From: Terriglobia bacterium
GTDB taxonomy: Bacteria > Acidobacteriota > Terriglobia > Terriglobales > Acidobacteriaceae
DNA length: 64,000 nt
NCBI GenBank assembly: GCA_020073525.1
Contig: JAIQFA010000021.1
Coordinates: forward strand, 1 to 64,000
Direction: 5' to 3'
Of this stretch, positions 17,241 through 17,732 are shown piece after piece (position 1 is the stretch's first letter; each line of letters starts with the position of its first letter). A program made the translations under genes and the position numbers. The notes beneath the pieces were generated by a model. The model ran no database searches and was not told where the DNA came from. It was given only the letters and a program-made list of their open reading frames with translations.

Positions 17241-17732
17241 ATGAGGAACCGCACTGAAACGCTGGAGATCGGTTCGCGCGCCCCGGACTTTTCGCTGGAA
17301 GCGGCCAACCGCGAGGGCATATTCACTCTCGCTGGCCTGCTGCAGCAGGGCACGCTGATTCTCGAGTTTCTGCGCGGAACCTGGTGACCGAACTGCGTGA
17401 AGCGCATGACTCAGTTCGAGTCGCGGAGACGGGATATTGAAGCAGCGGGAGCGCAGCTGGCATTCATTGCCGCCGAAAAACGGGATGGCGTGTGGAAGCC
17501 GGGAAAATTCCTGGAGAAGCATCCCATCGGCAGCGCCTTCCTCCTCGATGAGGATCGGACGGTGACCAAAGCCTATGGGCTTCATCATGCGTTGGGCACT
17601 GACGCCATTAACATCGCGCACCCGGCCACGCTCGTCATTCAGCGCGGCGGCTTGGTGCGATACATCTATCGCGGCGATAACCAGCACGACCGCGCACCGC
17701 TGGACGAGGTCATAGGAGCTTTGCCAGCATAG
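17241..17732 (+). CDS. Peroxiredoxin-like (AhpC/TSA) protein with in-frame TGA at the catalytic Cys: candidate selenoprotein
   Basis: Reading through one TGA (17385-17387, codon 49) gives a continuous 163-residue thioredoxin-fold protein: [20 protein letters not shown], then FLRGTW-(TGA)-PNCVKRM, then [33 protein letters not shown] and [19 protein letters not shown]. In relatives the motif is RGxWCPxC; here the UGA stands exactly where the first redox Cys should be, leaving a U-x-x-C pair (Sec49/Cys52). The only Cys in the protein is Cys52. The downstream 115 codons are undamaged. A bSECIS-like hairpin follows. The alternative is a nonsense mutation (TGC or TGT to TGA). ATG 17241 has no strong ribosome site. 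Predicted role: peroxide or disulfide reduction in the cytoplasm. Confidence 0.7.
17388..17422 (+). promoter_or_regulatory. Candidate bacterial SECIS element
   Basis: Immediately after the in-frame TGA, GACTC (17408-17412) pairs with GAGTC (17418-17422) around the loop AGTTC, and the stem can extend by a U-G pair on the outside. The loop begins 25 bases after the UGA and has a G in its second position, matching the usual bacterial SECIS spacing (about 16-37 bases) and the loop-G rule. A competing 7-bp stem, CGAACTG/CAGTTCG (17389-17395 with 17412-17418), is also possible. The structure is read by eye, not computed. Confidence 0.5.

Follow-up and report, generated by a model that had tools for sequence, protein, structure and literature searches.

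A UGA-interrupted gene of the AhpC-TSA/Redoxin superfamily

The window analyzed in this study is a stretch of 64,000 nucleotides from a Terriglobia bacterium, whose assembly comprises 6.0 Mb in 210 contigs with an estimated contamination of 5.65%. On the plus strand, at 17241–17732, lies a gene whose product is, as judged from sequence, almost certainly a selenoprotein. The gene starts with ATG at 17241, ends with a TAG stop codon at 17730–17732 and would give a protein of 163 residues with the UGA at 17385–17387 (codon 49) read as selenocysteine (Sec). According to the original prediction, a TGA occupies the first redox position, in the motif RGTW-U-PNC, of an otherwise intact gene. Inspection of the frame verified this, as TGA 17385–17387 is the only in-frame stop between the ATG and the TAG. 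Besides Sec49, the protein contains a single Cys residue, Cys52 (17394–17396), its putative partner. Both the Pfam AhpC-TSA domain (residues 10–142; 65.9 bits vs. a cut-off of 26) and the Pfam Redoxin domain (residues 11–158; 64.8 bits vs. a gathering cut-off of 26.6) span the TGA, and with both scores above the gathering cut-offs the protein falls into the AhpC-TSA/Redoxin superfamily. Further features of the gene are a candidate bSECIS hairpin, GACUC-AGUUC-GAGUC, at 17408–17422 and Pro128 (17622–17624), a putative cis-Pro that aligns with the peroxiredoxin (Prx) Arg. Because the internal UGA is a "stop" codon, annotation software will probably split this gene or miss it altogether.

Several other elements were observed in the window. 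A perfect 17-bp inverted repeat, CCACCAAGGACACGAAG, lies just after the gene (17767–17783 and 17824–17840). It has two occurrences in the window vs. 0.01 expected, and its 15-bp core was found, among the gathered loci, only in the window's own copy (L023); it is possibly a dispersed repeat or a terminator-like element. On the minus strand, a small overlapping pair of genes (14579–14899 and 14824–15036) resembles by eye a HicA/HicB-type toxin-antitoxin system. Elsewhere in the window, 16 more TGA-interrupted candidates that have a Cys close by were detected, seven of them with some hairpin; these 16 are taken for chance occurrences.

Selenocysteine machinery of the genome

The original prediction implied an organism that makes Sec, and the search for the respective genes bore this out: selA, selB, selD, and tRNA-Sec(UCA) were all found in the window's own genome. 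The tRNA-Sec with anticodon TCA scored 69.7 bits (cut-off 47). The remaining 17 of the 18 matches to the tRNA-Sec model were ordinary tRNAs, one of which, at 49.8 bits, is a tRNA-Ser(tga). SelB was detected with 376 bits (cut-off 242), SelA with 544 bits counted together with a neighboring piece (cut-off 268), and SelD with 358 bits (cut-off 125). The selD gene (C43:27621–28580) contains an in-frame TGA at the active site, which reads AGUASKLSP, so that SelD itself looks like a selenoprotein; in the predicted fold a hairpin closes on a GGU loop 20 nt downstream of this TGA. Elsewhere in the same genome (C67:5457–5942) we noted a tight array of four tRNAs, Tyr-Ser(tga)-Ser(gct)-Leu, which are copies of tRNAs found at other places of the genome. 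This array is perhaps phage- or element-borne.

Conservation of the UGA codon and selection on the gene

Alignment of homologues, proposed earlier as a check, showed TGA at the same codon in relatives. Three homologue searches, supplemented with locus L064 and cleared of duplicates, gave 58 distinct Acidobacteriota loci, the window included. Codon 49 is TGA in 55 of these, every one with a different sequence, TGC in one (L064), and TGT in two (L085 and L086); neither TAA nor TAG was found at this codon among the 58 loci. The family combines a conserved in-frame UGA at the redox position with Cys in homologues.

In the search of relatives, 27 of 61 genomes gave a match at E ≤ 2e-24, without exception with TGA at codon 49; three of these loci (L044, L047, and L048) matched in two frames, and two (L040 and L044) contain unknown bases. 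In 26 of these genomes SelB scored above the cut-off; in the remaining one (G006) it was present in two pieces on one contig. The class survey gave matches at E ≤ 1e-16 in 24 of 399 genomes, 22 with TGA and two with TGT (31–32% identity). SelB was detected at E ≤ 1e-65 in 285 of the 399 genomes, including 21 of the 22 with TGA. The sole exception, G425, has the TGA gene and a tRNA-Sec(TCA), and its best match to the SelB model (193 bits) lies below the cut-off. For this genome (loci L071, L092, and L094) a completeness of 99% is estimated, with SelB-model matches reaching at most about 193 bits; either the assembly has a gap at selB or the SelB of this genome is divergent. In a phylum survey with the family profile, 16 of 396 genomes matched at E ≤ 1e-30, all 16 with TGA. 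Because these thresholds and the Sec-rich profile favor close relatives, distant Cys homologues are under-counted in the surveys. Two loci, L105 and L109, have two TGA codons per match, the second at the C-terminal end, which probably serves as the actual stop.

In all 43 aligned rows a start codon was available 47–52 codons before the UGA (the nearest one was chosen). For 91 pairs of these rows, with dS below 1.2 on both sides and above 0.2 upstream, the median omega (Nei-Gojobori) was 0.23 upstream and 0.20 downstream of codon 49. These values indicate that the gene is under purifying selection on both sides of the UGA. The neighborhood was also compared: within the flanking DNA examined, the window's family (f1) has a divergently oriented enolase gene upstream in 31 of its 36 loci, and family f4 in none of its eight.

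Further TGA-containing Prx-like genes were seen in two order-level relatives (L050 and L052, with RGYWUPFC and RGAWUPSC, respectively; about 32% identity). Many further low-identity matches in the search of relatives hold one TGA somewhere in the match. The sequences hint at several Sec-containing Prx-like groups in the phylum Acidobacteriota.

The bSECIS-like hairpin

The predicted hairpin with a 5-base AGTTC loop and G at loop position 2 is present. Its arms (H1) are at 17408–17412 and 17418–17422 and its loop at 17413–17417; the predicted 25 nt are the distance from the TGA to the loop, and the stem begins 20 nt after the TGA. According to the accessible text describing the bSECIS model, the loop has 3–9 nt, the stem 4–16 bp, and the spacing 16–37 nt, with G as the first or second loop base and frequently G or U after it, and a free energy of −7.5 kcal/mol or lower (PMC13188914). 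We applied these published limits directly to the hairpin. With its AGUUC loop, a stem of 5–6 bp and a spacing of 25, H1 lies within them, and isolated H1, at −6.4 to −7.1 kcal/mol, is just short of the −7.5 model limit. The 43 nt after the TGA fold at −12.8 kcal/mol into another, longer stem, no better than shuffled sequences do (z −0.43), and single-sequence folding prefers a pairing of 17389–17395 with 17412–17418 (H2). The case for H1 rests on comparison and not on energy.

In the alignment of 44 loci (42 distinct), H1 is paired in 98.6% of 210 cells, and when its 3′ arm was slid by 1–3 columns as a control the pairing fell to 11–47%. Pair 25–37 is A-U in 16 rows, G-C in 14, and G-U in 12, and is broken in none. 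Its changes alter the protein: in the codon table of 25 loci, the eighth codon after the UGA varies between Thr and Ala and the twelfth between Ser and Pro. Two-sided change occurs at one pair only and three pairs are invariant. RNAalifold on the 44-locus alignment predicted four of the five H1 pairs plus one outside. Together, the aligned sequences indicate that H1 is under selection, kept through compensatory change at one pair. Two competing stems were rejected in favor of H1: H2, with 91.5% of cells paired, is unpaired at one position in 15 of the 42 distinct rows and shows two-sided change at two pairs, and H3, located nearer to the UGA, is paired in 83.3% of cells of the 44 loci.

For the wider set we defined a qualifying hairpin as one of at least 5 bp with a loop of 4–6 nt, G in loop positions 1–2 and a loop start 13–30 nt after the codon. 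Such a hairpin was found in 51 of the 55 Sec loci vs. 17.5 expected under synonymous recoding with family codon usage, a comparison without a p-value since the sequences are related. The four failing Sec loci are L046, L068, L077, and L114; among six Cys loci one (L051) passed. Among the 55 Sec loci, 48 have the loop start at a distance of 25 nt from the TGA. Two others (L107 and L113) have it at 16 nt, with GGUUC and AGUUC loops on an unrelated stem, and L109, counted as passing, has a different hairpin with a loop start at 24 nt and another loop. The letters at the usual place of the loop in the 55 loci are AGUU (41), AGGU (8), GGUU (2), and AGGC (1). A notable trait of the hairpin, on this comparison, is that it appears to retain the type of loop despite changes in stem and location.

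Homologues with Cys in place of Sec

A Cys orthologue is found in L064, from a metagenome-assembled genome titled Edaphobacter aggregans. It has TGC at the Sec codon, adjoins enolase, and is 52% identical to the window gene. The hairpin test found no H1-type hairpin at this locus. Its genome (G437, for which no completeness figure was given) contains no SelB over the cut-off (best match 96.5 bits) and no detectable tRNA-Sec: all 11 matches to the tRNA-Sec model are ordinary tRNAs, the best of which (50.2 bits vs. the Rfam cut-off of 47) is a tRNA-Ser(tga) according to ARAGORN. In trees, L064 was nested among the members of the window's family (SH-aLRT 94 and 91) and was flagged as a long branch. 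A clade of all Sec rows that excludes L064 was not rejected by the AU test (p = 0.259). The place in the tree and the enolase synteny favor a Sec-to-Cys reversion, which we regard as the probable origin of L064.

Two further Cys loci, L085 and L086, carry TGT although their genomes have SelB; they are 31–32% identical to the window gene and may represent another subfamily. We can tentatively sketch a history in which the Acidobacteriota Prx-like enzyme would be old and largely vertically inherited, with Sec ancestral and nearly irreplaceable. Within the window's family, Cys would appear where the Sec machinery is gone, so that a family of thiol oxidoreductases would show reversion from Sec to Cys. 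The bSECIS would have a constant purine-G-U/G loop on a changing stem and could shift by nine nt. Since Cys also occurs in the SelB-bearing genomes of L085 and L086, we consider this history possible and do not go as far as calling it probable.

Fold and active site of the predicted protein

An AlphaFold2 model calculated with Cys in place of Sec (mean pLDDT 93.3) shows one fold across the TGA. The top structural match was Bcp4 (3hjp; Z 23.4, 1.8 Å over 153 residues), followed by AhpE structures with Z scores of 21.9–22.5 (4x0x, Z 22.5); 3hjp and the AhpE entries overall superimpose at 1.7–1.9 Å over 148–153 residues. In Foldseek, 4gqf and 2cx3 rank high. Alignment to 2cx3, 2ywn, and 3hjp places Sec49 at the Prx Thr/Ser. 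Cys52 falls on the residue that is the peroxidatic Cys in PrxQ-type peroxiredoxins and a Ser in 3hjp. In the same alignments Arg45 is located at the Prx Pro and Pro128 at the Prx Arg. Catalytic peroxiredoxins share the active-site set PxxxTxxC...R, which reads RxxxUxxC...P in the window protein when aligned to 2cx3; the profile gives an identical reading against 2cx3, 2ywn, and 3hjp. Arg45, Gly46, Thr47, Trp48, and Cys52 are invariant in 43 of 43 rows. Position 128 is Pro in 39 of the 43 rows and Arg in four, which means that the Prx Arg is not lost in every row.

Compared with PrxQ/BCP and AhpE proteins (3hjp, 2cx3/4gqf, 4x0x, and 1xvw), the window protein has the same fold and Cys52 at the peroxidatic Cys, whereas their active-site Pro, Thr, and Arg correspond to Arg45, Sec49, and Pro128. 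The description of the product as a peroxiredoxin-like enzyme holds for the fold and for Cys52 as the sole other thiol, but the characteristic Prx residues Pro, Thr, and Arg are replaced. In the alignment, the Prx peroxidatic Cys corresponds to Cys52 and not to Sec49. In view of the replaced residues and the position of Cys52, "Prx-like UxxC oxidoreductase" is a safer name than "peroxiredoxin."

The GTWCPHC motif of ResA aligns with GTWUPNC of the window protein. ResA/DsbE thiol:disulfide oxidoreductases are exported or membrane-tethered, whereas the N-terminus of the window protein shows by eye no evident signal peptide, and the selenoprotein is probably cytosolic.

Proposed mode of action and alternative readings

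The conserved and selected UGA and hairpin, together with a full Sec machinery in the genome, argue for a selenoprotein. With high confidence we regard the locus as a functional selenoprotein gene, most likely for a UxxC oxidoreductase on a Prx fold. Following the known bacterial pathway, SelB carrying Sec-tRNA(UCA) would bind the hairpin and Sec would be inserted at UGA-49; the product would have 163 residues and W-U-P-N-C as its active site. From the fold and the alignment, Sec49 would be the attacking selenolate and Cys52 the resolving thiol, joined in a Sec-S-Cys bridge. Such a Sec49-Cys52 selenenylsulfide cycle would be of the thioredoxin type on a Prx scaffold. Its targets may be disulfides or small oxidants, and recycling would proceed through a cellular thiol reductant.

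As to the catalyzed reaction, sequence and model incline us, without great assurance, toward a thioredoxin-like UxxC oxidoreductase rather than a dedicated peroxidase. The same selenoprotein could instead be a true peroxidase, in which Sec49 (or Cys52) reduces hydroperoxides in a PrxQ-like manner and any disulfide activity is incidental. This is a tenable, if weaker, proposal, as the best-scoring solved relatives by both sequence and fold are BCP/PrxQ and AhpE, with whose peroxidatic Cys Cys52 aligns, and four rows retain Arg at the Prx Arg position. Against it stand the RxxxUxxC...P reading of the PxxxTxxC...R set, with Arg45 invariant in 43 of 43 rows, and the fact that ResA/DsbE-type CxxC oxidoreductases are sequence matches as well.

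Decoding of UGA-49 as Cys, Trp, or Ser, through near-cognate readthrough or a suppressor tRNA, is very improbable. Enzyme function could survive with Cys, and the accessible text of one report describes tRNA-Cys variants bearing the anticodon UCA, as well as allo-tRNAs, the latter in Acidobacteria too (PMC7609411). Yet the tRNA-Sec is the only one with a TCA anticodon among the 18 tRNA-Sec-model matches of the own genome, SelA, SelB, and SelD are present and the hairpin is selected, and in L064, where SelB over the cut-off and tRNA-Sec were not found, the codon is TGC.

Still less credible is a pair of separate genes, a 48-residue peptide followed by a 111-residue protein from GTG 17397. An ORF of the latter kind is present in the ORF list, but the Pfam domains and a single confident fold cross the TGA, the stretch from the UGA to the GTG is conserved at the protein level (PNC), the hairpin is selected, and codon 49 varies between TGA (55) and TGC/TGT (3) in 58 loci and is never TAA or TAG. 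The least credible reading, a nonsense mutation or a sequencing or assembly error in a Cys gene, would need a change of one base (TGC to TGA), in an assembly of 210 contigs with 5.65% estimated contamination, but is refuted for the family by TGA in 55 loci of distinct sequence and omega of about 0.2 on either side. TGA at the same codon in relatives means that the window carries neither a private nonsense mutation, the alternative named in the original prediction, nor an assembly error. The nonsense, assembly-error, and split-ORF readings were consequently rejected on the conserved TGA, the two-sided selection, and the domains across the TGA.

Relation to known Prx-like selenoproteins

Prx-like selenoproteins with a UxxC motif have been known since 2005, when a "Prx-like protein" with 22 sequences was described from the Sargasso Sea (PMC1088965). 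The GOS survey lists "Prx-like 1" and "Prx-like 3" UxxC selenoproteins, with 225 Sec vs. 2,740 Cys and 68 Sec vs. 2,608 Cys sequences, respectively (PMC2398784), and reviews speak of a "Prx-like thiol:disulfide oxidoreductase" (PMC9312934; PMC13188914). As far as the consulted portions of these sources describe them, such proteins share with the window protein the AhpC-TSA/Redoxin domain, Sec as the first residue of UxxC, and a bSECIS-like hairpin just downstream. The window's group differs in being acidobacterial, with a near-fixed RGTWUPNC motif and almost all members with Sec. Its grouping with the literature proteins (e.g., WP_010940744.1 and HEU0032618.1) was made by the AhpC-TSA/Redoxin domain and the UxxC motif. 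Among NCBIfam models none scored above its cut-off for the window protein; the best curated one by E-value was NF040769, "SelL-related redox protein" (38.4 bits, under the curated cut-off of 120), which matched all 43 rows at E ≤ 1e-5 (best 7.5e-17).

For Acidobacteria, a table of 2006 counts four selenoproteins in three families (PMC1794560), and for Occallatibacter riparius (Acidobacteriota) three known selenoprotein genes were reported in 2025 (PMC12013277); the available portions of both papers do not name them. A description of the acidobacterial orthologue group was not found among the open-access papers searched, the supplements of which (e.g., of PMC12013277) may list it. By domain and motif, the window gene appears to belong to the known Prx-like UxxC selenoproteins, and the near-all-Sec state in Acidobacteriota seems unusual. 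What sets the group apart is the near-total presence of Sec in the homologues collected from the phylum, the mobile hairpin with a conserved loop, and the probable Sec-to-Cys reversion.

The authors of deep-Sep mention that selenoproteins without Cys homologues may be filtered out (PMC12013277). Predictors built on Sec/Cys pairs may perform badly for a family such as this one, which has few close Cys homologues. With a near-all-Sec family on the one hand and a same-locus Cys orthologue without detectable SelB or tRNA-Sec on the other, the question of why Sec is kept becomes testable, and the gene points to selenium use in soil bacteria.
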